From Verrucomicrobiota bacterium (GTDB taxonomy: Bacteria > Verrucomicrobiota > Verrucomicrobiia > Limisphaerales > UBA9464), in assembly GCA_016871615.1 (NCBI GenBank), contig VHCX01000007.1:1-64000 (forward strand): a stretch of 64,000 bases of DNA, given 5' to 3'. The stretch's first letter is position 1. The number at the start of each line of letters is the position of its first letter. The notes under the pieces were generated by a model. It worked only from the letters and a program-made list of their open reading frames with translations. It was not told where the DNA came from and searched no databases. A program made the translations under genes and the position numbers. This document shows, piece after piece, positions 9,078 through 31,834 of this stretch.

Positions 9078-9941
9078 CTAGGGAACCCGGATCTCCGAGC
9101 CGGGCTTGAGCCGGCGGGTGTCGACCCCGGGATTGGCCGCCTGCAACTGCTGCAGGGTGATCCCCTGGGCCGCGGCGATCGCCGCCAGGGTGTCTCCGGG
9201 CTTCATCCGGTAGGTCTTGGGTGTGGAGGACCGACGGGGCTCCGGGGTCGGTGGGCGGGCGGCGGGCCGGGACTTGGGCTCGACCAACTTGGCCTCGGCC
9301 CGCGGCGGGTTCGGCGAGGCGGGCACCGCACGCGTCGGAGGGGGCGTCTTGACCTTCGACGCCGGCATCCGGGTCGACGGGACCGCCGGACCCGGCGGGG
9401 CGGCGGCCGCGGTGGGGCCCGTGGCGGACGACCGGGTCGAGGCGTTCTGGAGCTGGTTGCTCAGGCTGTGGACGGCCTTGCGCAGTTCGTCGTTCTCGCG
9501 CCGCATCTGCTCGAGCTGGCCCTGGGTCTGGATCTTGCCGATGGCGTCGGCATGAAGCTCGGCCAGGCGCAGGCCGGTGGCGCGGACCAACTGGTTGACG
9601 ATCAGGTCGTTGGTGCGTCCCGACAGGCTCAGGTAGCGCCGCAGATGGTAGTAGGCGAAGCCGTACTCGGGCAGCTTGGCGGAGTCGGAGTGGATGATGC
9701 CCAGGCCCAGGTGCGCGTCGGCGTTGCGGGGATTCACGTCGAGCGCCCGCTGGTAGTATTCGACGGCCTTGGGGAACTGGTTCATCCGCTGATAGGCCTC
9801 GGCCTGACGGTAGTTGGTCTCCTCCTTCGGGTCGGCCTTGCCGCTCACCCAGGGGCGCTCGTCGCATCCGAGCCAGGGCAGGCAGGCGACCAGGAGCATG
9901 CCGACGGATGGCCAGGGGTTCTTCCGGGGTCTGGGGAGCAT
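9078..9941 (-). CDS. TPR and LysM domain lipoprotein
   Basis: Lipobox-like ACLPWLGC; TPR AVEYYQRALDVNPRNADAHLGLGI; C-terminal LysM MKPGDTLAAIAAAQGITLQQLQAANPG. Confidence 0.85.
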   Translation of the reverse strand: MLPRPRKNPWPSVGMLLVACLPWLGCDERPWVSGKADPKEETNYRQAEAYQRMNQFPKAVEYYQRALDVNPRNADAHLGLGIIHSDSAKLPEYGFAYYHLRRYLSLSGRTNDLIVNQLVRATGLRLAELHADAIGKIQTQGQLEQMRRENDELRKAVHSLSNQLQNASTRSSATGPTAAAAPPGPAVPSTRMPASKVKTPPPTRAVPASPNPPRAEAKLVEPKSRPAARPPTPEPRRSSTPKTYRMKPGDTLAAIAAAQGITLQQLQAANPGVDTRRLKPGSEIRVP

Positions 9942-9976
9942 GACGGGTGGGAGGCTGGTCCGGGCTGGACGGAACG

Positions 9977-11479
9977 TCAACGCGTGCGCCGCCGACGGGC
10001 GGGTCGGGGCCCTGCGGTCGCGGCAGGAGGGACAGGAGGGGCAGGAGGGGCAGGAGGGGCCACGGACAGCCGCCGGCGCCATCCGTCGATCTGCCGGTCG
10101 ACCTGACGCCCTCCCGGGGCTCCGGGGATGTCCCGGCGACCCATGGCCCGGGACAGGTCGTAGAGCCCGAGGACGTCGGCCTCGAAGCACGGCTCGATCG
10201 CCCGGTGCTCGTCGAGCGTGAGACGGTCGATCGGGCGGCCGGCCTTCTCGGCGAACGCCACCAGCGCACCCACCGCATGGTGCGCCTGCCGGAAGGGCAT
10301 GCCCCGTTGCACCAGGTAGTCGGCCAGGTCGGTGGCCAGCAGCAGGGGATCCTTGGCGGCGGCGGCGCAGGCGGCCGGCTGCACCGCGGTGTGGTCCAGC
10401 ATGGCGGCGGTGAGGCACACGCAGGATCGCACCGTGTCGGCCGTGTCGAAGAGGCGCTCCTTGTCCTCCTGCAGGTCGCGGTTGTAGGTCATGGGCAGGC
10501 CCTTGAGCAGGACCAGCAGCGACACCAAGTTACCGATGACGCGGCCGGACTTGCCCCGGGTCAGCTCGGCGATGTCCGGGTTCTTCTTCTGGGGCATCAG
10601 CGACGAACCGGTCGTGTACGCGTCGGCGATGCGGATGAAGCCGAACTCCGCGGACGCCCACAGGATGAGGTCCTCGGAGAGGCGGCTCAGGTGGACCGCG
10701 ACGAGCGAGGCGGCCGCCCCGAACTCCACGACGAAGTCGCGGTCCGACACCGCGTCCATCGAGTTGCGGGTCAGGCGCGGGCGCCCCTTGGCGTCGGTGA
10801 ATCCCAGCAGCGTGGCCACCAGGCCGCGGTCCAAGGGCAGGGTGCTGCCGGCGATCGCCCCGGATCCCAGGGGGCATTCGTTGAGGCGGTCCGCCGCGTC
10901 GGCCAGCCGTCCGGCGTCCCGCTCGAACATCTCGACGTAGGCCAGGCAATGGTGCGCGAAGAAGACCGGCTGGGCCCGCTGCAGGTGCGTGTAGCCGGGG
11001 ATGACCACCTCCGGATGCCGGGCGCCGAGGTCCACCAGCGACCGCTGGAGGTCCCTCAGCTCACCCGTCAGCGCGGCGATCTCGGCCCGCAGCCACAGCC
11101 GCATGTCGAGGGCGACCTGGTCGTTGCGAGACCTGGCGGTATGGAGCTTGGCGGCCGCCGGCACCCGGGCGGTGAGGGCGGCCTCGATGTTCATGTGGAC
11201 GTCCTCGAGGTCCTCCTTCCACGGGAAGGTCCCGGCGGCGATCTCCCGCCCGATGGCCTCGAGGCCGCCGACGATGTCGCGACGTTCCGGGGCGGACAGC
11301 ACGCCGATCTTTTCCAGCATCGTCGCGTGGGCGATCGACCCGGCGATGTCGTGGGGCCAGAGCCTCCAGTCGAAGGACACCGACTGCGAGAACCGGGCGA
11401 CCTCGCGGCTGGGGCCTTCGGTGAATCGGCCGGAGCGGGAGACGACGGCGGAGGGTTGGGACGGGCGGGGTGACTTCAT
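9977..11479 (-). CDS. argH: Argininosuccinate lyase
   Basis: HMNIEAAL, HTARSRNDQVALDMRL, GYTHLQRAQPV, GSSLMPQKKNPDIAEL. Confidence 0.95.
   Translation of the reverse strand: MKSPRPSQPSAVVSRSGRFTEGPSREVARFSQSVSFDWRLWPHDIAGSIAHATMLEKIGVLSAPERRDIVGGLEAIGREIAAGTFPWKEDLEDVHMNIEAALTARVPAAAKLHTARSRNDQVALDMRLWLRAEIAALTGELRDLQRSLVDLGARHPEVVIPGYTHLQRAQPVFFAHHCLAYVEMFERDAGRLADAADRLNECPLGSGAIAGSTLPLDRGLVATLLGFTDAKGRPRLTRNSMDAVSDRDFVVEFGAAASLVAVHLSRLSEDLILWASAEFGFIRIADAYTTGSSLMPQKKNPDIAELTRGKSGRVIGNLVSLLVLLKGLPMTYNRDLQEDKERLFDTADTVRSCVCLTAAMLDHTAVQPAACAAAAKDPLLLATDLADYLVQRGMPFRQAHHAVGALVAFAEKAGRPIDRLTLDEHRAIEPCFEADVLGLYDLSRAMGRRDIPGAPGGRQVDRQIDGWRRRLSVAPPAPPAPPVPPAATAGPRPARRRRTR
10024..10059. repeat. 9-bp tandem repeat (caggagggg) x4 in the 3' end of argH
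   Basis: caggaggga, caggagggg, caggagggg, caggagggg. Confidence 0.9.
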
Positions 11480-16062: not shown

Positions 16063-17373
16063 TCAGTTGAGCACGATCCCCAGACGCAGGTAGGTTGGCA
16101 CGTCGAGGTCCACGCCCTTGTGGCGGTTGCGCTCGGTGTTGTCGAAGCGGCCCCGCTGCGCGATGTCGAAGTTCATGACCATCTGGGAGTCGGTCCGCCC
16201 GCGGGAGGAGGGCCTGGAACGCTGCCGGCTCAGGATCCGCTGGCGCTGCTCCATGCTGAGCTCCGGGGGCGGCGGGATCAGCCGGGGGTCGGCGACGGTC
16301 CGCTGCTCCGGGGCCTGCAGGAAGTCCTCGCCGCCGAAGGGGGCCGTCGTCCCGCCGCTTTCCGCGGACCGCACTTTGGCAGCCTGCGGTGTCGGGACCT
16401 CCCCGCCGCCGAAGCCGGACCCTACCCGCGCGGCCGCCGCCTGGGCCGGGGCCCGGGTGGTGATCGCCGTGACGTGGAGGTGCCCGGTCAGGGACGGGTC
16501 GATCGACGCGCCGACGACGAAGTCGGCCGACGGGCAACGGGCCTGGAGGGTCTCGACAAGGTGTTCGACCTCGCCGATCTGCAGGTCGTCGCCACCAGCC
16601 ACCCCGATCAGCACCTCGCGGGCCGAGGCCAGCGCCGCACCGGTGTCGAGGAAGGGGTGCGTGAGCAACTGCTCGGCCGCCGCGTGGGCCCGGTTGCCGC
16701 CGGTGGCCTGCACGGCCGCGAAGGCGCTCTCGGCATGACGGCCGCGCAGCAGGCGCTCGATGTGGGCGAACTCGATGGGGATCAGCCCGGGAGAGTCGAG
16801 CAGACGCCAGAGGCCCTGGAGGGTCTGGGCCAGCAGCTCGTTGGCGAACTGGTAGAGTTCGTGGGGGTGGGTCCGGTCGTCGTGCATCCTCCGGACCCTC
16901 TGGTTGGAGATGGCCAGGACCGCGTCGGCCGCGTTGCGCAGGCGCTCGAGCGACTCTTGGGCGAACTGCACGCGACGGCGCTCGAACTCGAAGGGCGTCG
17001 TGGCGATGACCAGCACGAGGGCGCCGGACTCGCGGGCCGCCCGGGCGACCACCGGTGCCGCCCCGGAGCCCGTCCCGCCGCCGAGGCCCGCGACGACGAA
17101 GACCATCCGAGCCCCTTGCGTGAACTCCCGGATGGACGCGAGGTCGGCCTCCGCGCTCAGGCGCCCGATGTCGGGGTCTCCCCCGGCCCCGAGGCCGTGG
17201 CTGACCGAAAGGCCCAGGGTGAGCCTCCGGTCGATCGGGGAGGTGCGGAGCGACTCGGGGCTGGTGTCGGCATGGGCGCACTCCAGCGCGCCGGGGGAAC
17301 GCCGGCGGAGCGCGTCGAGGATCCGTGCTCCGGCGTGGCCGACGGCGAGGAATCGGATGGCGGCGTCGTTCAT
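16063..17373 (-). CDS. ftsZ: Cell division protein FtsZ (divergent)
   Basis: Tubulin signature VVAGLGGGTGSGAAPVVARAA; VLIGVAGGDDLQIGEVEHLVETL; C-terminal peptide DLDVPTYLR; downstream of ftsQA. Confidence 0.9.
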   Translation of the reverse strand: MNDAAIRFLAVGHAGARILDALRRRSPGALECAHADTSPESLRTSPIDRRLTLGLSVSHGLGAGGDPDIGRLSAEADLASIREFTQGARMVFVVAGLGGGTGSGAAPVVARAARESGALVLVIATTPFEFERRRVQFAQESLERLRNAADAVLAISNQRVRRMHDDRTHPHELYQFANELLAQTLQGLWRLLDSPGLIPIEFAHIERLLRGRHAESAFAAVQATGGNRAHAAAEQLLTHPFLDTGAALASAREVLIGVAGGDDLQIGEVEHLVETLQARCPSADFVVGASIDPSLTGHLHVTAITTRAPAQAAAARVGSGFGGGEVPTPQAAKVRSAESGGTTAPFGGEDFLQAPEQRTVADPRLIPPPPELSMEQRQRILSRQRSRPSSRGRTDSQMVMNFDIAQRGRFDNTERNRHKGVDLDVPTYLRLGIVLN

Positions 17374-19573: not shown

Positions 19574-20488
19574 TCAACGTTCCGTCGCCGGCCTGGCCAG
19601 GGCCCGTCGCACCATCCGCTCGCAGAGCTCCGCGAAGCCGATGTCGGCCGCGGCGGCGGCCTTGGGCAGCAGGCTCGTCTCGGTCATGCCGGGGAGGGTG
19701 TTCACCTCGAGAACCACGGGCGAGCCGTCGGGCCGGACCATCACGTCCACGCGGGCGTAGTCGCGGCAGCCCACCGCGTGGAAGGCCCCCAGCGCGGCGG
19801 CCTGGATGGCCCGGGTCACCTCCCCCGGGAACTCCGCCGGGCAGAAGTACTCGGTGCGGCCGGTGGTGTACTTGTTGGCGTAGTCGTAGGCGCCGGACCT
19901 CGGGCGGACCTCCACCACCGGCAGCGGCTCACCGTCGAGCAGGCCAACGGTGGTCTCGCGTCCGGCGATGCGCTCCTCCATCAGCACCTCGCCGCCATGC
20001 GACAGGGAGAAGGCCAGCGCGCCGGGAAAGTCCTCGATCCGGTCGACGAACCGCAGGCCCACGCTCGAGCCCTGGCGGGCCGGCTTGATCACGACCGGCG
20101 GCCGCCATCCGTCGGGCCAGGGCGCATCGGCGTCGATGAAGCGCTCGAACCGCGCAGTCGGAACCCCGGCCCGGAGGCAGCGGCGCTTGGTGAGGATCTT
20201 GTCGAAGGCGTAGAGGGAGGCCCGGACCCCGCAGCCGGTGTAGGGCACCCCGAGCTCCTCCAGCTCGGACTGGACCGTGCCGTCCTCGCCGTACGTGCCG
20301 TGGAGGGCCAGGAAGACCACGTCGGTTCCGTCCGGGATCTCCGGGGCCCCGGGCACCGGATCGACCTCGTCGATCCGGTGGCCCAGCGACCTCAGGGCCC
20401 GCGCCACGGCGTCGCCGGAGCGCAGCGAGACCTCCCGCTCGGCCGATGGGCCGCCGCGCAGCACGGTGATGTGGAGGCGGTCGGTCAT
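19574..20488 (-). CDS. ddl: D-alanine--D-alanine ligase
   Basis: VLRGGPSAEREVSLRSGDAV; ALHGTYGEDGTVQSELEELGVPYTGCG; VLEVNTLPGMTETSLLP. Confidence 0.95.
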   Translation of the reverse strand: MTDRLHITVLRGGPSAEREVSLRSGDAVARALRSLGHRIDEVDPVPGAPEIPDGTDVVFLALHGTYGEDGTVQSELEELGVPYTGCGVRASLYAFDKILTKRRCLRAGVPTARFERFIDADAPWPDGWRPPVVIKPARQGSSVGLRFVDRIEDFPGALAFSLSHGGEVLMEERIAGRETTVGLLDGEPLPVVEVRPRSGAYDYANKYTTGRTEYFCPAEFPGEVTRAIQAAALGAFHAVGCRDYARVDVMVRPDGSPVVLEVNTLPGMTETSLLPKAAAAADIGFAELCERMVRRALARPATER

Positions 20489-21474
20489 GCGTCCTCGCCC
20501 ACGATCTCCACCTCGATCTCCAGCGCGACACCCCGCTCCCCGAGCGCCCTCGTGCGGACCAGGTCGATCAGGGCGAGCATGTCCGCCGCGGTGGCCCGCC
20601 CGAGGTTGACGAAGAAATTGCCGTGGACGTCGCTGACCATGGCGTCGCCGACGCGCGTCCCCTTGAGCCCCAGCTCGTCGATGAGACGGCCGGCCGGGAG
20701 CGTCGGCAGGGGATTCTTGAAGGTGCAACCCGCGCTCGGCTGGCTGGGCTGGCTCGACCAGCGCTTGCCCGAATACTGCTCCATGCGGTCCCGGATCGTG
20801 TCGGCATCCTCGGGTCGTCCCCGCAGCACCGCGCCGAGCGCGATGTGCGTGGCGAGCATCGGGCAGGAGCGGTACTCGACGGGCACCTCGCGGGCCGGCA
20901 GGTGGCGGACCTCCCCGAGGCGGCTCATGCAGCGCAGCTCCTCCACCGCGTCGAAGGTCCACGACCCCATCGCCCCCGCGTTCATCCGCAACGCCCCGCC
21001 GAGGGAGCCCGGGATGCCCTCGAAGAACTCGAGGCCGCCGATGCCGGCGCGCCGGGCCTCGTGGGCGATCGTCTTGAGCCGGGCCCCGGCGCCGGCGGTG
21101 ATCCGCCCCCCATCGGTCTCGACGCGTGAGAAGTGGGGATGGGCGAGCGAGACGACCAGGCCGCGGATGCCGCCATCCCGCACCAGCAGGTTGGAGCCGC
21201 GGCCGAGCAGGAAGACCGGCAGGCCGCGGAGGTTGGCGATCTCGAGGGCGGACGCCAGCGCGTTGTCCGAGCCGGGTTCCACGTAGAGGTCGGCCGGCCC
21301 GCCGACGCGCAGGGTGGTGCGCCGGGCCAGGGGTTCGTCGCGCCTCACCACCGTCCCGGCAGGCAGGACGATCCCGAGGTCCCGGAAGGCGTTGGAGATG
21401 TCCTCGGCGTGGGCGGCGGCCGACTCGATCGCCGGATCGACCTGTTCCGGGCTCAGTCGCAGCGGGTTGCTCAT
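20485..21474 (-). CDS. murB: UDP-N-acetylmuramate dehydrogenase
   Basis: TLRVGGPADLYVEP; LGRGSNLLVRDGGIRGLVV; GIPGSLGGALRMNAGAMG; SAGCTFKNP. Confidence 0.95.
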   Translation of the reverse strand: MSNPLRLSPEQVDPAIESAAAHAEDISNAFRDLGIVLPAGTVVRRDEPLARRTTLRVGGPADLYVEPGSDNALASALEIANLRGLPVFLLGRGSNLLVRDGGIRGLVVSLAHPHFSRVETDGGRITAGAGARLKTIAHEARRAGIGGLEFFEGIPGSLGGALRMNAGAMGSWTFDAVEELRCMSRLGEVRHLPAREVPVEYRSCPMLATHIALGAVLRGRPEDADTIRDRMEQYSGKRWSSQPSQPSAGCTFKNPLPTLPAGRLIDELGLKGTRVGDAMVSDVHGNFFVNLGRATAADMLALIDLVRTRALGERGVALEIEVEIVGEDA

Positions 21475-22685
21475 GCGGCCTCCTTGAAGGGCATCCAGCG
21501 GCCGCCCACCGGCAGCCCGGATCCCCGGGGGCCGCGTCGGACGGCCTGGGTGAAAGGCTGGCGCAGGTGGTGGAGGATGCCTTCGGCGATCGCCGCCGCC
21601 GCATCCGGGCGGTCCAGTCCGGCCAGGGCCCGGCGCATCGCCAGGCGCTTCGCGTCGTCCCGGACCAGCGGCAGCACCGCGTCCATCAAGCGGTCCGGCG
21701 ACAGCCCCGCCTGCCCGAGCAGCGTGGCCGCGCCGACCCCGGCCAGGGCGGAGGCGTTGTGGCGCTGGTGGTCGTCTTGCGCCGTGGGCAGCGGCACCAG
21801 CACCGCGGGAAGCCCGGCGGCGGCCAGTTCCGCCAGCGACGAGGCCCCGGCCCGGCTGACCGCCGCATCGGCCGCCTCGAGCGCCCGGTGCATCTCACGG
21901 AGGAAGGGCCGGACGAACGATCGCGCGCCCAGCGGACGGTGCGCGGCCTGCACCTCGGTGAGGTCGGGAACCCCGGCCAGGTGGATGAACTGGAGGTCCG
22001 GCTCGGCGGCGGCCAGGCCGGGCAGGGCCGCGCACACCGCCCGGTTGAGCCCCCGGGCGCCCTGGCTGCCTCCGGTGACCAGCAGCACCGGCCGGGACGG
22101 ATCGAGGCCGAGGGCGATCCGTGCCGCCCCGGCGTCGCGGCCGTGCCGCAGCCGCGCGATCTCCCCGCGGACCGGGGTGCCCGTGCAGGTCGTGCGCGCG
22201 GCGCCCCACCGGGAGGCCGTCTCCTCGAAGCCGCAGAAGGCCTCCCGCACCCAGCGGGCCATCAGCCGGTTGGCCCGTCCTGGCACGGTGTTGGACTCGT
22301 GGAGGAAGATCGCGGCGCCGAGGCGTCGCCCTGCCAGCATCGGCGGAGCGGCGGTGAATCCCCCCATGCCGAGCACCGCCTCCGGGGGTCGCGGGCCGAG
22401 GCCGCGGCCGGTGAAGAGCCGATGCGCGCACCGCCAGGCGCGGACGAAGCCCGCCAGGAACGAGCCCACGTTGCCTCCCTGCAGCCCCACCGCCGGGAGC
22501 GTCGCCGTGGCCAGGCCGATCCCCGGCAGGGCCTCCTGGTCGACCTCCTTCGGCGAGACCAGCAGGGTGACCTGCGCGCCCCGGGTCGCGAGTTCCCGTC
22601 CCACCGCCAGCCCCGGGAAGAGGTGGCCGCCGGTTCCGCCGCAGGCGATGGCGACATGGATCGAGGTGCCGACGGGTCGGTTCAT
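21471..22685 (-). CDS. murG: UDP-N-acetylglucosamine transferase MurG
   Basis: IACGGTGGHLFPGLAVGREL; LHESNTVPGRANR; VTGGSQGARGLN. Confidence 0.94.
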   Translation of the reverse strand: MNRPVGTSIHVAIACGGTGGHLFPGLAVGRELATRGAQVTLLVSPKEVDQEALPGIGLATATLPAVGLQGGNVGSFLAGFVRAWRCAHRLFTGRGLGPRPPEAVLGMGGFTAAPPMLAGRRLGAAIFLHESNTVPGRANRLMARWVREAFCGFEETASRWGAARTTCTGTPVRGEIARLRHGRDAGAARIALGLDPSRPVLLVTGGSQGARGLNRAVCAALPGLAAAEPDLQFIHLAGVPDLTEVQAAHRPLGARSFVRPFLREMHRALEAADAAVSRAGASSLAELAAAGLPAVLVPLPTAQDDHQRHNASALAGVGAATLLGQAGLSPDRLMDAVLPLVRDDAKRLAMRRALAGLDRPDAAAAIAEGILHHLRQPFTQAVRRGPRGSGLPVGGRWMPFKEAA

Positions 22686-23827
22686 CGGGCGGGCAGGGAT
22701 TCGAGGTCCGGGCAATGGAAGGGGTTGGTCCGGACGCCGGATGCCGACTCGACCGTCTCCGGGGCCCGCCGGGCGATCGACAGCAGCAGGCCGACCAGTG
22801 CCAGCATCGTCACCGCGCTCGAGCCACCCCGGCTCACGAAGGGCAGGGGCATGCCCTTGTTGATCATCGAATTGGTGACCACGGCGATGTTGATCATCGC
22901 CTGGCAGGCGATCAGGAAACCGATGCCCCCGGCCAACAGCCTCCCCTCCGCGTCGGCCGCCCGGGCGGCGATGCGGACCGCGCAGAGGAGGATCACCACG
23001 AAGGCGACCAGCACCCCGAGGGTGAAGAAGAGGCCCAGCTCCTCGCCGATCACCGGCAGGATGAAGTCGGTGTGCTGCTCCGGGATGGTGAGCTTGATGA
23101 CCCCGGAGCCCAGCCCCACGCCCTCGAGGCCGCCTTCGCGCAGGGCCGCCAGCGACTTCAGCGCCTGCGACCCGGTGGTCTGCGGATACAGCTCCGGATG
23201 CAGGAAGGCGTCCATCCGGTCGCGCACCATCTTGCTGGACTGGTAGAAGTGCACGCCCAGACCGGCCCCGAGCAGCAGCGGCACGATGGCGAAGCGCCGG
23301 CGCATCCCGCCGAGCAACAGGACCACCACCGTCACCATGCCGAAGAGGATCATGGTGCCGCGGTCGGGCTGCTTGTAGAGCAGGCCCAGGAGCGGCAGCA
23401 CCACCAGGCCGGGCAGCACCAGTCCCCAGAGGCCGGTCTGGATGAAGCCGCCGAGGCGCATGCGGGGGCCGAACCTCGCTCCCCAGGCCGCCAGCGTGAG
23501 CAGGAGGGGCAGCTTGGCGAACTCCCCGGGCTGGGTGCCGAAGACCCAGCGCTGGGCCCCGTTGCGGTAGGTGCCCAGCGGCGAGAGCACCAGCACCAGG
23601 AGAACCAGCGCGATGCCGTACCCCCACCAGTGGTTCCGGAGCCACAGCCGGTAGTCGTTCCGCCACAGGGCGCACATCAGGGCCGCCCCGACCAGGATGG
23701 CCACGCCCTGGGTGGCCACGAGGTTCGAGAACCTCGCGTCCATCATCACCGCGCTGGCCAGCATGGTGAAGCTGAGGGCCAGCAGGAGGCTGACCGTCAA
23801 CAGCAGCAGGATCGACGTGGTGCGCAT
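22682..23827 (-). CDS. ftsW: SEDS glycosyltransferase FtsW
   Basis: Polytopic; NGAQRWVFGTQPGEFAKLPLLL; YKQPDRGTMILF; EGVGLGSGVIKLTIPEQHTDFILPVIGEELG; PFVSRGGSS. Confidence 0.94.
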   Translation of the reverse strand: MRTTSILLLLTVSLLLALSFTMLASAVMMDARFSNLVATQGVAILVGAALMCALWRNDYRLWLRNHWWGYGIALVLLVLVLSPLGTYRNGAQRWVFGTQPGEFAKLPLLLTLAAWGARFGPRMRLGGFIQTGLWGLVLPGLVVLPLLGLLYKQPDRGTMILFGMVTVVVLLLGGMRRRFAIVPLLLGAGLGVHFYQSSKMVRDRMDAFLHPELYPQTTGSQALKSLAALREGGLEGVGLGSGVIKLTIPEQHTDFILPVIGEELGLFFTLGVLVAFVVILLCAVRIAARAADAEGRLLAGGIGFLIACQAMINIAVVTNSMINKGMPLPFVSRGGSSAVTMLALVGLLLSIARRAPETVESASGVRTNPFHCPDLESLPAR

Positions 23828-23878: not shown

Positions 23879-24790
23879 TCAGCGGCCCGGCACGGCCGGA
23901 GGAGCCACCGGGGCCGGGTCGGCGATGGGCGCATCCGCCGGGGCCTCGGTCGCGGGGGCCGTCGCCTCGGGGGCGCCCTTGTCGGGGATCTTGAGCTTCT
24001 GCCCGATGTTGATCTTGTCGCCGGAGAGGTTGTTGGCGGCGCGCAGGGCCTTCACCGTGACCCCGTGCTTCTTGGCGATCTTGCCGAGGGTGTCTCCGCC
24101 CTTGACCGTGTGGGAGGATCCACCGGTGGCTTCGCCGGCGGCGTCGGCGGCATCGGTGCCGGCCGACTTGGCGGCCTTGGTGCCCTTCTTCGGCGCGGCC
24201 TCCTTCGCGGTCCCGGCGGCGGGCAGCTGCAGGACCTGGTCCACCTTGAGCTTGCCGAGGTCGGTGTTCGGGTTGGCGTCCTTCAGCGCCTTGAGGGAGA
24301 TTCCGTTGGCCTTGGCGATGTTGAAGGCGATGTCACCGCTCTTGACCTTGTACTCGCTGGTCGCGGTTCCGGCAGGCTCCCCCGGAGACCGGGTTTCGGG
24401 CGGAGTGCCGCCGCCGGCGGGACCGACGCCCAGTTCGGGCGGGGCAACGATCGTGGGAGGGTTGGTGGCGCCGGACGGGAAGGTCGCGACCGCGCCGCCC
24501 GGGACGGTGGGCGGGTTGGTCGGCAGCGCGTCCGCACCCGGCGGTGGCACGAGGTCGGCGGCACCGCCCGGGGGTTGGGCGGGCTGGACCGCCACATCCG
24601 TCGGGTGTGCCGGCGTCGCGGGCTCGGAGGTCGTCGCCGTGCTCTCCTTGTTGCAGCCGTTGAGCAGCACCACGAGGAACACGGCCACGTGCGCGCTGAA
24701 GATGAAGGCGGCGATGCTGAAGGTGGATCGGCTCTTGGCCGCCTGCTCCAGTTTGGAACCGGGCAGCAGGGGGGAGTTGGGGATGCTCAT
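23879..24790 (-). CDS. Membrane-anchored double-LysM protein
   Basis: TM FIFSAHVAVFLVVLL; two LysM motifs (YKVKSGDIAFNIAKANGISLKALKDANPNTD; HTVKGGDTLGKIAKKHGVTVKALRAANNLSGDKINIGQKLKIP). Confidence 0.88.
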   Translation of the reverse strand: MSIPNSPLLPGSKLEQAAKSRSTFSIAAFIFSAHVAVFLVVLLNGCNKESTATTSEPATPAHPTDVAVQPAQPPGGAADLVPPPGADALPTNPPTVPGGAVATFPSGATNPPTIVAPPELGVGPAGGGTPPETRSPGEPAGTATSEYKVKSGDIAFNIAKANGISLKALKDANPNTDLGKLKVDQVLQLPAAGTAKEAAPKKGTKAAKSAGTDAADAAGEATGGSSHTVKGGDTLGKIAKKHGVTVKALRAANNLSGDKINIGQKLKIPDKGAPEATAPATEAPADAPIADPAPVAPPAVPGR

Positions 24791-25122: not shown

Positions 25123-26247
25123 TCATCGGATCTTCAGGGTGCTCAGGGCCACCACCGCGCAGAGGATCCCGGCGATGTAGAAGCGGGTGACGATCTTGGA
25201 CTCCTTCCAGCCCAGCTTCTGGAAATGGTGGTGGAGCGGCGCCATGAGGAAGATCCGCCGGCCCTCGCCGGTGGTGCGCCTCGTGTACTTGAACCAGCCC
25301 ACCTGCAGCATCACGCTGCCGGCCTCGGCGACGAAGACCGCCCCGGCGATCGGCAGCACCAGCGGTTGGTGGATGAGCACCGCCATGAGCCCGAGCGCCC
25401 CGCCGAGCGCGAGCGATCCGGTGTCGCCCATGAACACCTCGGCCGGGTGGCAGTTGAACCAGAGGAACCCGAGCGAGGCCCCGATCAGGGCCGCACAGAC
25501 GACCGTCAGCTCGCTGGCTCCGCGCACATGGGGGATCTGCAGGTAGGTGGCCAGCTTCACGTTGTCGGCCAGGTAGGTGAGGATCAGCATCACCATGGCC
25601 ACGATGAGCGTGCAACCGATGGCCAGTCCGTCCATGCCGTCGGTCAGGTTCACCGCGTTGGAGCTGCCGACGAGCGTCAGCGCCACCAGCGGGATTCCGA
25701 TCCATGGCACGGCGCTGAGCACGGGATCCTTGAAGAAGGGGATCTGGATTTCCGTCACGAGGGCCCGCGTCGAGGGCAGTTGCCACAGGTAGATGCCCAC
25801 GACGACGGCAAGCAGGCCTTGGACGATCCACTTGACCCTGGATTTCGCCCCGGCGGCGTCCTGGCGGGTCACCTTCAGCCAGTCGTCGTAGAAGCCGAGG
25901 AAGGCCAGCACCATCACGGAAAGCATCGTCAGCACCACCAGGGCGTTGGGCTTGGCCCAGAGCAGGACCGAGATGTCGAGGACCAGGAGGATCAGCACCC
26001 CGCCCATCGTCGGGGTGCCGCGCTTGGCGAGGTCGGCCGCCGCCGCGGTGGCGTCACCCGGGTTGCGCACGTCCTTGGGCTGGTAGTCCTGCCGGAACCG
26101 GAGGTTCCTGAGGCCCTCGATCACCCGGGGTCCGAGGAGCCAGCTCAGCACCAGCGCGGTCATCGCCGCGCCGGCGCTTCGGAAGGTGACGTACTTGAAC
26201 ACCGTCCAGGGGACCGTCGGGAACAGTTCTGGGAGCTTGTAGAGCAT
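25123..26247 (-). CDS. mraY: Phospho-N-acetylmuramoyl-pentapeptide-transferase
   Basis: KRGTPTMGGVLIL; FYDDWLKVTR; SSNAVNLTDGMDGLAIG; APLHHHFQKLGWKESKIVTRF. Confidence 0.95.
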   Translation of the reverse strand: MLYKLPELFPTVPWTVFKYVTFRSAGAAMTALVLSWLLGPRVIEGLRNLRFRQDYQPKDVRNPGDATAAAADLAKRGTPTMGGVLILLVLDISVLLWAKPNALVVLTMLSVMVLAFLGFYDDWLKVTRQDAAGAKSRVKWIVQGLLAVVVGIYLWQLPSTRALVTEIQIPFFKDPVLSAVPWIGIPLVALTLVGSSNAVNLTDGMDGLAIGCTLIVAMVMLILTYLADNVKLATYLQIPHVRGASELTVVCAALIGASLGFLWFNCHPAEVFMGDTGSLALGGALGLMAVLIHQPLVLPIAGAVFVAEAGSVMLQVGWFKYTRRTTGEGRRIFLMAPLHHHFQKLGWKESKIVTRFYIAGILCAVVALSTLKIR

Positions 26248-26254
26248 GTCGCGA

Positions 26255-27658
26255 TCAGCCGGGGATGTGGGTTCCGGACGGCTCGACGGCCAGCGACTCG
26301 ATCAGCCGCTCGATCCGGCTGCTGCGCGAGGCCTTGGCCAGCAGGCAGTCGCCGGGGTGGATCATCGGGCGCAGCGCCGGCACCGCGCTCTCGACGTCGG
26401 GGAAGCACAGCACCCGACCGCTGTCCCCGGCCCCGGAGGCGGTGTGGGCCGCCTGTCGGCCGACGCACACGAGGAGATCGATCCCCAGCCGGCGTGCCTC
26501 CGCGCCGACCTCGCGGTGGGCCTCGGCCGTGTGGCCCCCGAGTTCGGCCATGTCGCCGATGACGGCGATCCGCCGGCCCTCGCAGGGGAGGTCGGCCAGG
26601 GTCCGGAGCGAGGCCAGCGTCGAGTCGGCGTTGGCGTTGTAGGTGTCGTCGAGCCAGCGGACTCCGCGGCGCTCGGACCACTGCAGCCGCTGGCGGGCAC
26701 CGCGGAACCCGCGCAGCGCCTCCCGGGCGGCCTCCGGATCGACGCCCATGGACGCGGCGACGGCGAGGGCCAGGATTGCGTTCGAGACCATGTGGCGGCC
26801 CGGCACGCCCAGCGCGTAGTCGCCGCTCCAACACGGGTCCGGCGCCGTGAGCCCGAAGCGCGTGGCCTCCCAGTCCGACCCGAGCAGGCGTGCGCTCCAG
26901 TCGTTGCCGGCACCGAAACCACACCGCACCACCCGGGCCGGCGTGCGACCGGCCAGTCGTGCGGCCGCCGGGCAGTCGCCGTTGAGGAAGAGGGTGCCGG
27001 TCACGGGCAGGGCGCGGGCCAGCGCGCTCTCCTCCTCGAGCACCCCCTCGACGTCGCCGAAGTGCTCGAGGTGCTCCCGCCCGATCTGCGGGACGACCCC
27101 GATGTACGGCGAGATCAGACGGACCAGCGGGGCCAGTTCGCCCGGATGGTTGGTCCCGGCCTCGAGCACGGCCACCTCGTGCGAGGCGTCGACGGCCAGG
27201 AGGCTGAGCGGCACGCCGATGTCGTTGTTGAAGCTCGCCTCGGAACGGAGCGTGCGGAAGCGGGTCGACAGCACGGTGGCCAGCAGCTCCTTGGTGGTCG
27301 TCTTGCCGTTGGATCCGGCGACGCAGACCAACGGGATGCCGAGGCCCGACCGGTGGGCGGCGGCCAGGTCCGCCAGCGCGGTGCGCGTGTCCCGGACGTG
27401 CACGGACGGCATGCCCTCCGGAATCCCGCCCGGGCTTCTGGCGCAGACCAGGACGGCGGCCGCCGTCGACGCGAGGACGGGATCGCCGAGGAAGTCGTGC
27501 CCGTCGAAGCGTTCCCCGCGCAGGGCCACGAAGAGCTGCCCCGGCCCCAGCCGCCGCGAGTCGGTGCAGACGCCGGCGACCCGGACCCCGCCCGCCGTGG
27601 CGGGATGCACCACGCCGTGCGTGGCCTCGGCGATCCTCTGGAGCGTGAGGGGTTGCAT
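26255..27658 (-). CDS. murF: UDP-N-acetylmuramoyl-tripeptide--D-alanyl-D-alanine ligase
   Basis: TDSRRLGPGQLFVALRGERFDGHDFL; GSNGKTTTKELLATVL; NHPGELAPLVRLISP; LDDTYNANADS. Confidence 0.94.
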   Translation of the reverse strand: MQPLTLQRIAEATHGVVHPATAGGVRVAGVCTDSRRLGPGQLFVALRGERFDGHDFLGDPVLASTAAAVLVCARSPGGIPEGMPSVHVRDTRTALADLAAAHRSGLGIPLVCVAGSNGKTTTKELLATVLSTRFRTLRSEASFNNDIGVPLSLLAVDASHEVAVLEAGTNHPGELAPLVRLISPYIGVVPQIGREHLEHFGDVEGVLEEESALARALPVTGTLFLNGDCPAAARLAGRTPARVVRCGFGAGNDWSARLLGSDWEATRFGLTAPDPCWSGDYALGVPGRHMVSNAILALAVAASMGVDPEAAREALRGFRGARQRLQWSERRGVRWLDDTYNANADSTLASLRTLADLPCEGRRIAVIGDMAELGGHTAEAHREVGAEARRLGIDLLVCVGRQAAHTASGAGDSGRVLCFPDVESAVPALRPMIHPGDCLLAKASRSSRIERLIESLAVEPSGTHIPG

Positions 27659-28416
27659 CAGTCGAGGGCGTAGGTCGCGTTGACCACGGCGGTGACGGTC
27701 TTCTCGCGGGAGGTCGTGTCGTTCATCCCGTCCCAGGTGTTCTGCGTCGAGTGGAGCGGGGTGATCTGGAAGACCCCCATCTTGGCCGAGCGCATCCGCG
27801 CGATGCGCCGCCCGCCCGGCGAGACGATCTGCTCGGCCCGGGCGAGGGCGTCCCGGGAGGCGTCGGCCAGCATCTCTATCTTGGCCTCGCCCGCCTTGGT
27901 CCAGATGAACTCGGGCGAGCCCGCCGTGAACTCGATGCCCTGCGTGACGAGCTGGGGGGCCTTGGCGTCCATCGCCAGGACCGTGTCGATGTCGCCCGAA
28001 CGGACCTCGACCGTGCGGCCCAGGCGGAACCTGGAGGACGGGGCCTCGGTCCCGTCGTCGTCGCCGCCGCCGTCGGCGGCGGGCTGCCTGCCCGCGCGGA
28101 CCTGGATGCGCTGGATGGCGATCGGGTGGAAGTGCGTGTTGGTGACACCCTGAGCCGCGAGGAAGTCCCGGGTCGTGGATTCCTGGCGGGCCAGCAGCGC
28201 CTGGGCCTCCAGCAGCGTGGCGCTCTCGACGGTGATCGTTCCGCGCCAGACCACGAGGTCGGACTGCACGTTGCGACGGGCCGAGCCGGTGACGCTGATC
28301 GACTCGGCGTCGGCGACCTTCAGCCAGGTGCGCGTGAGCACCAGCGACGAGAGCACGAGTCCGGCGGCCAGGAACAGGCCGGCGAGCACGCCGAGAAGGT
28401 GTGGTCGGTGCGGCAT
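27658..28416 (-). CDS. SIMPL (DUF541) domain protein
   Basis: N-terminal TM; ISVTGSARRNVQSDLVVWRGTITVES...TRDFLAAQGV; C-terminal ASRDALARAEQIVSPGGRRIARMRSAKMGVFQITP. Confidence 0.82.
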   Translation of the reverse strand: MPHRPHLLGVLAGLFLAAGLVLSSLVLTRTWLKVADAESISVTGSARRNVQSDLVVWRGTITVESATLLEAQALLARQESTTRDFLAAQGVTNTHFHPIAIQRIQVRAGRQPAADGGGDDDGTEAPSSRFRLGRTVEVRSGDIDTVLAMDAKAPQLVTQGIEFTAGSPEFIWTKAGEAKIEMLADASRDALARAEQIVSPGGRRIARMRSAKMGVFQITPLHSTQNTWDGMNDTTSREKTVTAVVNATYALD

Positions 28417-28418
28417 GG

Positions 28419-29663
28419 TCACAGCGAGTCCCCCACCCATCCGCGTGCGGCCAGCGCCTCGCGGGCATGCCCGCGGTCGTCCCACGGGATGACCGACCCC
28501 AGGACCTCCTGGAATGGCAGTCCGCCCTTGCCGGCGATGAGCACCACGTCGTCCGCGCGGGCGTCCCGCACCGCCGTGCGGATGGCCAGGTGGCGGTCCG
28601 GTTCGCCACTTGACGCGCCGCCATGGCCACGCTGGAGATCGGCGAGGATGTCGCCGACCGTCGCGTGGCCCGGGTTGTCCGACGTGAAGATGACCTCGTC
28701 GGCCCCCCGGGCGGCGTCCCCCAGCGCGGCCCGTTCGGTGGACCCGGTGTTCCCACGGATCCCGGTCACCAGCAGGACCCGTCGTCCGCCGAGGGTGCGC
28801 GCCTCGGCGATGAGGTCCCGGAGATCGTCGGGGGAGGCGGCGCGATCGACGAACACGCCGAACGGCTGGCCGGCCTGGACAGGCTCCAGCAGACCCTGGG
28901 GTGGCTCAAGCAGGGGCAGCGCCCCCAGGGTGAGGGGGATCGGGCAGCCGGCGGCCAGCGCGACCTCGAGTGCGGCCTCGAGCCCCTTCAGGTTGGAGCC
29001 GCCGACGATCGGCAGGTGGGCCGTCCTCGGCGGCCTCCCGGGCAGCCCGAGGACCTCCAGGCGGGTCCCCTTCCAGTGCAGGGCCAGCGCCTCGACCCGA
29101 ACCCGGATCCTGGTCGGGGTCCCGAGTCGGGCGCGCGGGCTGGCCTGCCCGATCAGGGCGCGGATCTCGGCGTCCTCCTCGACGACCAGGCAGTCGCCGC
29201 CGCACCGGACATGGCTGGCCAAGAGGCGCGCCCACTCCAGGGCCTCCTCGCGCACCGGTCGATGCGGGAAGAGCCGGTCGGCGATCCGTCCGCCCTCCGG
29301 GGTGATCAGCGCCGGACGCCTCCCGGCGTGGGCGAGCAGCCCGTGCAGCAGGGCCGCCGTCGCCGCCGACACCCGGCCCTCCCGCGGGATGCGGCAGAGG
29401 TCCAGGCGCTCGAGCGGATGCCCCGCCGGGCCCGGGCCGACCCCGCCGGCGTGGGCGATGTCCGGCGCGGCGGTCGGCCGCAGCCGCCCGGTCGGGGGTG
29501 CCTGACGGAGGGAGCTCTGCCGTTGCCGCCGTCCGCCCGTCTCGCAGCCGGTGGTGGACGGCCCGAAGGCCTTCGGGCGCGCCGACGGCGTGCCCTCGTC
29601 GCGGGCGGTCGGCCGCGGACCGGCCGCGGTGCCGGGGATCCTGGACACGTCGATGGGAGGCAT
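28419..29663 (-). CDS. MurE-like Mur ligase homolog, apparently degenerate (no P-loop)
   Basis: C-terminal domain matches MurE (QPFGVFVDRAASPDDLRDLIAEA...EVIFTSDNPGHATVGDIL...DDVVLIAGKGG...IPWDDRGHAREALAARG); genomic position of murE between ftsI and murF. Confidence 0.75.
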   Translation of the reverse strand: MPPIDVSRIPGTAAGPRPTARDEGTPSARPKAFGPSTTGCETGGRRQRQSSLRQAPPTGRLRPTAAPDIAHAGGVGPGPAGHPLERLDLCRIPREGRVSAATAALLHGLLAHAGRRPALITPEGGRIADRLFPHRPVREEALEWARLLASHVRCGGDCLVVEEDAEIRALIGQASPRARLGTPTRIRVRVEALALHWKGTRLEVLGLPGRPPRTAHLPIVGGSNLKGLEAALEVALAAGCPIPLTLGALPLLEPPQGLLEPVQAGQPFGVFVDRAASPDDLRDLIAEARTLGGRRVLLVTGIRGNTGSTERAALGDAARGADEVIFTSDNPGHATVGDILADLQRGHGGASSGEPDRHLAIRTAVRDARADDVVLIAGKGGLPFQEVLGSVIPWDDRGHAREALAARGWVGDSL

Positions 29664-29665
29664 GC

Positions 29666-31834
29666 TCACGGGCGCGGGGCGTGGCCCCCCGGACCGGCGG
29701 CGAGGGTGTTCACCGTGGCCGTCGGGGAGGGGGGAATCGTCAGGTAGCTGGCCGTCTCGCGGACGATCTCCTTGAAGACGGGCACGCAGGCGGCGCCGTA
29801 GGCGGCACGTCCGTCGGTGCCGGTGGGCTCGTCGGCGCAGACCAGCAGGCAGACCTGCGGGTTCTCGGCCGGGAGGAAGCCGACGAAGGTGCTGAAATGC
29901 GCCGTGATCCCGGCGGCCATGTGGGCCTTGGTCATCTTGTTGGCCGTCCCGGTCTTGCCGGCGACGGTGTAGTCCGCCAGCGCCGCGTCCTTGCCCGTGC
30001 CCTTCGGCCCCACCACGGCCGTCATCAGCCGGATCAGGTGCCGCGCCGTCTCCGGGGCGACCACCCGGCCCACCTGCCGGGGCGCCAGGTTGCGGATGAC
30101 GCCGCCGGAAGGCGTCTCGACCGACGCCACGAGCATCGGTTCCATGAGGATCCCGTCGTTGGCGACCGCCGCGTAGGCCATGGCGATCTGCAATGGCGAG
30201 GTGTAGATGCCGTAGCCGTAGGAGAGGATGAGCTGCGTCCCCAGGCCCTCCCACGCCGGGATTCGGGGGTTCTGCTCGCCCCCGCACAGGATTCCGCTCC
30301 GGCGCAGCAGGCCGAAGGCGTCCGCGTACCGCACCAGCGCGGTGCCGCGCGGGGGCGCCGCCGGATCCCACAGGGCGTATCCCAGCTTCGCCGCGCCGAC
30401 GTTGGACGAGGCGGCGAAGGCCTCCTCGAGGGTCACCGTATGCAGCTTGTGTCCCCGGGCGTCGGCGATGGGCTTGCGGCGGCCGGCCGGCGGGTGCCAG
30501 AGGCCGCCCTCGCAGTCGATCCGCGAATCGGGTCTGAGATGGCGGCCGGCCAGCGCCTCGAAGGCGGCGGAGTAGGTCACCAGCTTGAAGGTGGAACCGG
30601 GCTCGACCAGCTCGGAGACGGCATGGTTGCGGCGCCTCGGCCGGACCGGGCCGCCCTTGGGGACCGGTGCGCCGGGCTGGACCGGCGGGATGTACTCCGG
30701 GTCGGTGGCGTTGGCCAGGGCCAGGATCTCGCCCGTCGCGGGCCGGACGAGGATCGCCGACATCCAGTTCGGCTTCAGCCGTCCCATGGCCTTATGCAAC
30801 GCGTTCTCGGCGACATACTGGAGGTTCGCGTCGAGGGTCAGGCGCACGTTGGCCCCGGGTTGCGGGGGCAGGTCGAGTTCGCGCGAGCCCGCCAGCTCGC
30901 GGCCCTTGCCACGGCGGAGCACCGACTGGCCGGGCACGCCGTGCAGCTCGTCGTCGAACTGCCGCTCGATGCCGTCGGCCCCGCGCACCTCGGCCGGAAG
31001 CTCCCGGGTCCGGACCTGGACGCGCTGGGTCGCGGTGCGGTACTCGACGAGCGGGATCTGCCCGTTGGTCGTCGATCCCAGCACCGGCGCGGCCAGCTCC
31101 CCATGCGGCATGATGCGTCGTTCCACGATCTCCGCGGTGATGCCGTTCTCCCGGACCTCCCTCAATTGGGGTTGGATCCTCTTCAGGGCCTGGGCGATCT
31201 CCCTTCCCTCGCGGCCGATCTCCTTCCGGAAGCGGTACCTGGCCGGCAGGTTCCACCAGGGGATCGGGGCCGCGTTGGTGCGGCGGTGCGCCAGCGCCGC
31301 CGAGGCGGCCAGGAGCCGCTGCTGCTCGGGCGGGCGGAAGGCCTTGAGGTTGGTCTGCACCCGGGTCCACTCCGCGTGGGTCAGGTTGGAGGCGACCAGG
31401 ACGTTCTGGTTGGTGTGGAGGACGTGCACCCACTGCGTGGTCACCAGGCCGGAGGCGTTGGTCGCGGGAAGGGCCTTCCAGCGGAGTTCCGGACGGATCG
31501 TCAGGCGCTCCTCGAGCACGCCGGCCGGGATCGACAGCAGCGGGGCCAGCATCGCCACCAGGTGGGGGGCCTGGTTGCTGACCACGACGGGGTTGCCCCG
31601 CAGGTTGTAGGTGTACTGAGAGAAGACCAGCCGCTCGCCGCGCCGGTCGAGCAGTTCGCCGCGTGGGGCCGGCAGGTACGACACGCGCGCCGGGTTGGCC
31701 CCGAGCGTGTAGCGCGCCGTCTCGGGACGGAACCCTTGAATGTACACCAGGCGGGCGGCGAGTCCGGCGAAGACGGCGCAGCAGATCAGGGTCAGCCCGG
31801 TCAGCGTCCTGTCGGTGGCGATGGGGGCGTTCAT
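29666..31834 (-). CDS. ftsI: Penicillin-binding protein (FtsI/PBP3-type transpeptidase)
   Basis: PRGELLDRRGERL; EPGSTFKLVTYSAAFEAL (SxxK); SSN; VAGKTGTANK (KTG). Confidence 0.93.
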   Translation of the reverse strand: MNAPIATDRTLTGLTLICCAVFAGLAARLVYIQGFRPETARYTLGANPARVSYLPAPRGELLDRRGERLVFSQYTYNLRGNPVVVSNQAPHLVAMLAPLLSIPAGVLEERLTIRPELRWKALPATNASGLVTTQWVHVLHTNQNVLVASNLTHAEWTRVQTNLKAFRPPEQQRLLAASAALAHRRTNAAPIPWWNLPARYRFRKEIGREGREIAQALKRIQPQLREVRENGITAEIVERRIMPHGELAAPVLGSTTNGQIPLVEYRTATQRVQVRTRELPAEVRGADGIERQFDDELHGVPGQSVLRRGKGRELAGSRELDLPPQPGANVRLTLDANLQYVAENALHKAMGRLKPNWMSAILVRPATGEILALANATDPEYIPPVQPGAPVPKGGPVRPRRRNHAVSELVEPGSTFKLVTYSAAFEALAGRHLRPDSRIDCEGGLWHPPAGRRKPIADARGHKLHTVTLEEAFAASSNVGAAKLGYALWDPAAPPRGTALVRYADAFGLLRRSGILCGGEQNPRIPAWEGLGTQLILSYGYGIYTSPLQIAMAYAAVANDGILMEPMLVASVETPSGGVIRNLAPRQVGRVVAPETARHLIRLMTAVVGPKGTGKDAALADYTVAGKTGTANKMTKAHMAAGITAHFSTFVGFLPAENPQVCLLVCADEPTGTDGRAAYGAACVPVFKEIVRETASYLTIPPSPTATVNTLAAGPGGHAPRP

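Follow-up and report, generated by a model that had tools for sequence, protein, structure and literature searches.

The Mur ligases MurC to MurF are regarded as a set that is nearly universal and indispensable, and as targets for drugs. A 2025 survey found the dcw cluster to be highly conserved across Verrucomicrobiota (PMC12283558). The MurD2/MurL pathway is a known departure from MurI/MurD (PMC8788868), and Tannerella forsythia, a MurNAc auxotroph, no longer has all of the cytoplasmic wall pathway and uses AmpG to scavenge the product (PMC7670621). The ligase Mpl has L-Ala-gamma-D-Glu-mDAP as its established substrate; for the Psychrobacter enzyme, the rate is 260/min with the tripeptide versus 0.7/min with L-Ala (PMC3060825). 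A physical link of MurE to MurF and MurG is known from the Bordetella MurE-MurF fusion and its MurG scaffold (PMC6420597, 8f5d). PAP11, a MurE homolog, serves as a structural subunit and makes some of its contacts via the MurE C-terminal domain (PMC12681378). In the literature we searched, we found no description of a loss of MurC, MurD, and MurE with a retained pseudoenzyme, as reported here.

An eroded murE at its ancestral place in the dcw cluster

We analyzed a 64,000-nucleotide stretch of Verrucomicrobiota DNA (the window) that holds a contiguous dcw cluster in the order mraZ-rsmH-ftsL-ftsI-[murE]-SIMPL-murF-mraY-LysM-ftsW-murG-murB-ddl-...-ftsA-ftsZ. Its central features are the following.

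29666..31834, minus strand: ftsI (PBP3), immediately upstream of the pseudoenzyme
28419..29663, minus strand: P-loop-less MurE pseudoenzyme, 414 aa, ATG start (residues 1-78, disordered tail; 79-257, remnant central domain; 258-412, Mur_ligase_C domain)
27658..28422, minus strand: SIMPL-domain (DUF541) protein, present in only some relatives
26255..27661, minus strand: murF, intact, Walker A GSNGKTTT, over the TIGR01143 cut-off
25123..26247, minus strand: mraY
23879..24790, minus strand: LysM protein, directly after mraY
22682..23827, minus strand: ftsW
21471..22685, minus strand: murG, 404 aa, overlaps murB
20485..21474, minus strand: murB
19574..20488, minus strand: ddl (D-Ala-D-Ala ligase)

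The cluster also encodes a divergent FtsZ (16063-17373, minus strand; TIGR00065 221 bits, cut-off 295) with an altered N-terminal glycine motif and a long C-terminal extension. Several families have a SIMPL (DUF541) gene where murE and murF once adjoined, with or without murE.

The ORF at the murE position is intact, reading from 29663 to 28419 on the minus strand. The ftsI TGA stop adjoins its ATG and its own stop overlaps the start of the SIMPL gene, so the arrangement resembles a coupled operon. A first-pass annotation, made from the letters of the window, had described an intact frame close to these two neighbors and had derived it from MurE, and both statements are confirmed. A Pfam scan gave Mur_ligase_C (PF02875) as the sole match (E 4.7e-18), and the Mur_ligase_M ATPase domain with GTNGKT(T/S) is absent. 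The NCBIfam MurE models match the C-terminal half, with E values down to 2.6e-34, far under their cut-offs; TIGR01085, for example, scores 114 bits, short of its cut-off of 257.3. An hmmsearch of the family profile against the PDB found MurE at 3.5e-52, and a domain-1 remnant was also detected in relatives. In the AlphaFold model, the core is confidently predicted from residue 79 on (pLDDT about 90), and residues 7-78 of the window protein are predicted to be disordered (pLDDT < 50). The top Foldseek folds are the MurE-like plastid RNA polymerase subunit PAP11 (E 8e-24) and then MurE of Mycobacterium and E. coli. Domain 1 had been described as replaced by low-complexity residues, which holds for only some of genus g1; a recognizable domain 1 persists in the other genera.

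Loss of the catalytic motifs

Motif retention was scored over the columns that are invariant in 16 canonical MurE sequences, against 18 pseudoenzymes of the family. P-loop residues T121, N122, and K124 are retained in none of them, and G123 and T125 in 11%. The F208-H219 motif (FTNLTRDHLD) is retained at 0-11% and the carbamylated lysine K229 at 0%. By stretch, retention is 18% from the P-loop to VEVSSH, 5% over FTNLTRDHLD and the lysine, and 58% in the C-domain. About half of the FTNLTRDHLD/lysine stretch is deleted, the deletion relative to MurE amounts to about 65 residues, and the segment with both motifs is lost in 18 of 18 family members compared. The loss of Walker A, FTNLTRDHLD, and the carbamylated-lysine loop, as first proposed, is thus borne out at 0-11% retention, which likewise supports the proposal that the protein is non-catalytic. 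The surviving residues are the Arg of GKR (0.72), the K of AGKG (1.0), D-N-P (0.8-0.9), and the last DD, and the Glu of AGKGHE is lost in every pseudoenzyme compared. The Arg of DNPR is gone in half of the 18 pseudoenzymes, that of the window among them. The DNPR-to-DNPG change noted earlier is real for the window protein and its nearest relative, but most aligned relatives keep DNPR, so this change is local. With these residues, part of mDAP recognition may be possible; ATP-driven ligation, judged from established Mur ligase chemistry, should be impossible.

Conservation and selection

Is the remnant simply decaying? Its catalytic motifs are gone and the gene has been cleanly deleted in sister genera g2 and g9 and in one g6 genome, as would befit a functionless pseudogene. 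We nonetheless consider this extremely improbable. Omega (Nei-Gojobori) stands at 0.05 and 0.11 for the two most closely related pairs and at 0.13-0.30 for five more distant ones, in line with the neighboring MurF in the same pairs, which argues for a maintained pseudoenzyme unless an overlapping feature imposes the constraint; the N-terminal tail before the core has near-neutral omega. The ORF is open in the full-length relatives aligned, and the core is predicted with high confidence. The P-loop-less form is present in seven genera of the family (g1 and g3-g8), and its occurrence in at least 18 relatives rules out a frameshift or assembly error hiding the P-loop. The first reading of the gene as maintained rather than decaying therefore agrees with the omega values. 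Its outright deletion in sister genera shows that the pseudoenzyme is dispensable there and not essential to the pathway.

Altogether, the gene lies at the orthologous place, keeps the fold, has lost the catalytic residues, and is under purifying selection. It is the ancestral orthologous murE at its own dcw place, turned into a maintained pseudoenzyme, and not a paralog as had been supposed.

Comparable erosion was seen elsewhere. A second MurE pseudoenzyme, full-length and from another family (G049; L082:9502-11286, minus strand), has GTNGKTT changed to GGEARSS, the FTNLTRDHLD and lysine motifs destroyed, and DNPC. At L241 (G051:C139, about 9703-10611), a MurE with an intact P-loop lacks the carbamylated-lysine region and is followed by a SIMPL gene. 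This genome otherwise seems to carry MurC and MurD, and its MurE is possibly an early erosion stage or an assembly gap.

Mur ligases left in the source genome

The first-pass annotation placed true MurE activity elsewhere in the genome, a claim that three whole-genome domain searches refute. The source genome has three Mur_ligase_M proteins, namely MurF, Mpl, and FolC; the PF01225 search found no extra Mur ligase, and the pseudoenzyme is the only extra match to PF02875. These searches of a 183-contig draft (95.6% complete) recovered no MurC, no MurD of any kind, and no second, working MurE. Such absences are Pfam-based and come from multi-contig drafts, and an unrelated replacement enzyme would escape these models. 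The Mpl protein, on contig C17, has intact motifs and scores 454 bits against TIGR01081, over the equivalog cut-off of 388.7. Its score against the murC model (306.8, cut-off 335.1) rules it out as a relocated MurC.

The window itself is closed up over the missing genes. In complete relatives, murD sits between mraY and the LysM gene, and it is missing from that slot here; murG and murB overlap, closing the murC slot between them. These observations bear on whether MurC, MurD, and MurE are present after all, either missed by assembly or binning or too diverged for the models to recognize. A draft in 183 pieces leaves some room for that, yet we judge it very improbable: the syntenic slots are closed rather than broken by contig ends, three Pfam domains agree, and the same absence recurs in 46 of 59 relatives, many of them more than 90% complete.

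Repeated loss across the order

Mur ligases were assigned by synteny and score in 59 genomes of the genus, family, and order. MurC and functional MurE are missing from 46 of them, many more than 90% complete; these lacking genomes span 2.4-6.7 Mb and otherwise retain the lipid II pathway. The remaining 13, from other families, carry MurE, most with the complete set. The usual Mur_ligase_M count among 195 genomes of the phylum is 5-7; a count of three or fewer occurs in just four others. The fate of murD varies: the source family has none, while the gene looks intact in f21, f22, and apparently f6, is eroded in f2, persists as a pseudoenzyme in f13, and is reduced to a C-terminal remnant in f10.

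Five changes, at least four of them on well supported branches, are required on a tree built from eight dcw proteins, which includes some gappy rows and rows of differing letter composition. One ancestral loss, with the lacking genomes as a single clade, is ruled out (p-AU 2.3e-6). The loss of MurC and functional MurE is repeated and stepwise, having occurred at least four times.

Individual genomes show further variation. In G047, a MurD pseudoenzyme in the dcw cluster (L081:4840-6213, minus strand) scores 137 bits against TIGR01087 (cut-off 212) with its frame still open. In G044, a C-terminal murD remnant between mraY and the LysM gene (L080:5346-5726, minus strand) is a loss caught in progress. 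G027 has two extra MurF-like ligases without the N-terminal domain (L089:4902-6428, L090:5909-7198). G172, a single contig, has a Mur_ligase_M count of 2, versus 6-7 in all others of its genus, which may reflect frameshifts or another loss.

A probable replacement route through Mpl

A genome that has neither MurC nor MurD nor a working MurE must make or obtain its wall peptide by a non-textbook route. How, then, is it supplied? We propose that Mpl would join free L-Ala-gamma-D-Glu-mDAP to the UDP-MurNAc made by MurA/MurB, giving UDP-MurNAc-tripeptide, after which MurF, MraY, and MurG would act as usual. The tripeptide would most likely be recycled or scavenged, with uptake by an Opp-type importer and trimming of tetrapeptide to tripeptide by LdcA; in the sister families, an AmpG-like importer would serve for uptake. 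The main alternative supply would be a hypothetical tripeptide synthetase.

Several observations bear on this route. Among the matches listed, one of the Mpl class occurs in each lacking genome outside g1 that is more than 90% complete, and most g1 genomes have one too; alignment confirmed Mpl in the 20 genomic regions examined. MurB, Ddl, MurF, MraY, and MurG remain, and these are the enzymes required if the tripeptide is the unit supplied. LdcA is found in 26/46 lacking genomes, including the source genome, versus 1/13 of the others, and AmpG-like permeases occur in six lacking families and in no complete family; this distribution points to recycling or uptake, although the LdcA, AmpG, and MurI associations come from 3-5 independent contrasts, which is not enough for a test. 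The source genome has an Opp-type binding protein (SBP) and two permease genes. Apart from sub-threshold matches and a single fragment at a contig edge, the lacking genomes have no MurI; 8/13 others have it. Five MurE-bearing genomes also lack MurI and must obtain D-Glu from another source, so the MurI result is supportive and not decisive. Counting against scavenging, LdcA is missing in many lacking genomes, and in three of them (G008, G009, and G042) an Opp SBP and an AmpG-like importer are both absent. The intact-looking MurD of f21, f22, and apparently f6 counts against an Mpl-only route there, because MurD would not be needed. On balance, UDP-MurNAc-tripeptide probably enters the pathway through Mpl from free tripeptide and passes to MurF, MraY, and MurG.

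Free tripeptide need not be scavenged. A non-Mur ligase, or a pair of them, might make cytoplasmic L-Ala-gamma-D-Glu-mDAP de novo for Mpl to load. A spreading synthetase would explain why genomes of this size, with the rest of the pathway retained, lost the ligases at least four times, and the lacking genomes without a recognized importer also fit. We consider de novo synthesis rather unlikely, since no candidate lies beside the mpl, ldcA, AmpG-like, Opp, or dcw genes (ATP-grasp families fell outside this search) and the lacking genomes are without MurI, apart from the matches noted above. No D-amino-acid transaminase scored over the cut-off in any genome searched. A common weaker match, tried as a source of D-Glu, looks like a branched-chain aminotransferase and was rejected. 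An Ala-Glu epimerase sought through MR_MLE_C was likewise set aside: the widespread, conserved enolase-superfamily ortholog occurs in complete genomes too and, by eye, looks hydroxyproline-type.

Possible role of the pseudoenzyme and significance

Returning to the Mpl route, what would the shell of MurE do? It keeps the C-terminal domain and some mDAP-binding residues without ATP binding. The scaffold or regulatory role first suggested for it is plausible, with the divisome as one of several possible partners. A docking or ligand-binding partner of MurF, MurG, or Mpl would be the simplest role, and we tentatively suggest that it may be such a subunit, passing on or sensing the mDAP-tripeptide, rather than an enzyme. 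Taken as a whole, we lean slightly toward a scenario in which several Verrucomicrobiota families independently gave up de novo stem peptide synthesis (MurC, MurD, MurE, and MurI) and build the wall via Mpl from free tripeptide, living as obligate scavengers on wall peptides from other bacteria or using an undiscovered synthetase, with the dead MurE kept as a non-enzymatic subunit of a MurF-centered machine.

Mpl becomes a candidate essential enzyme in a lineage that has lipid II machinery and lacks MurC, MurD, and MurE, and such a lineage is predicted to be intrinsically indifferent to MurC-E inhibitors. A muropeptide missing from media could help explain resistance to cultivation. The locus also offers a natural case for a non-catalytic MurE role.

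Comparison with known systems

The source genome's second UDP-MurNAc ligase belongs to the same family as the characterized Mpl (PMC3060825), with motifs intact; elsewhere, however, Mpl is a recycling enzyme beside MurC-E, whereas here it is apparently the sole entry of the stem peptide. Tannerella forsythia lost MurA/MurB and scavenges the sugar, while here it is the peptide branch that is lost. The MurD2/MurL pathway is itself Mur-ligase based and needs MurC, MurD2, and MurE, whereas the source genome yielded no MurC, no MurD of any kind, and no working MurE. Canonical MurE (1e8c, 2wtz, 8g6p) shares with the pseudoenzyme its orthologous position, its C-terminal domain, and the DNPR/AGKG/DDR motifs, of which the pseudoenzyme has remnants, but the pseudoenzyme is without the P-loop, FTNLTRDHLD, the carbamylated lysine, and about 65 residues. 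In the Bordetella fusion, in contrast, MurE is catalytically active. PAP11 is the best fold match and, like the proposed shell, a MurE homolog acting as a structural subunit of another machine. It is, however, full-length with an N-terminal extension, eukaryotic, and part of a transcription complex, whereas the pseudoenzyme is bacterial, shortened, and still in the dcw cluster.
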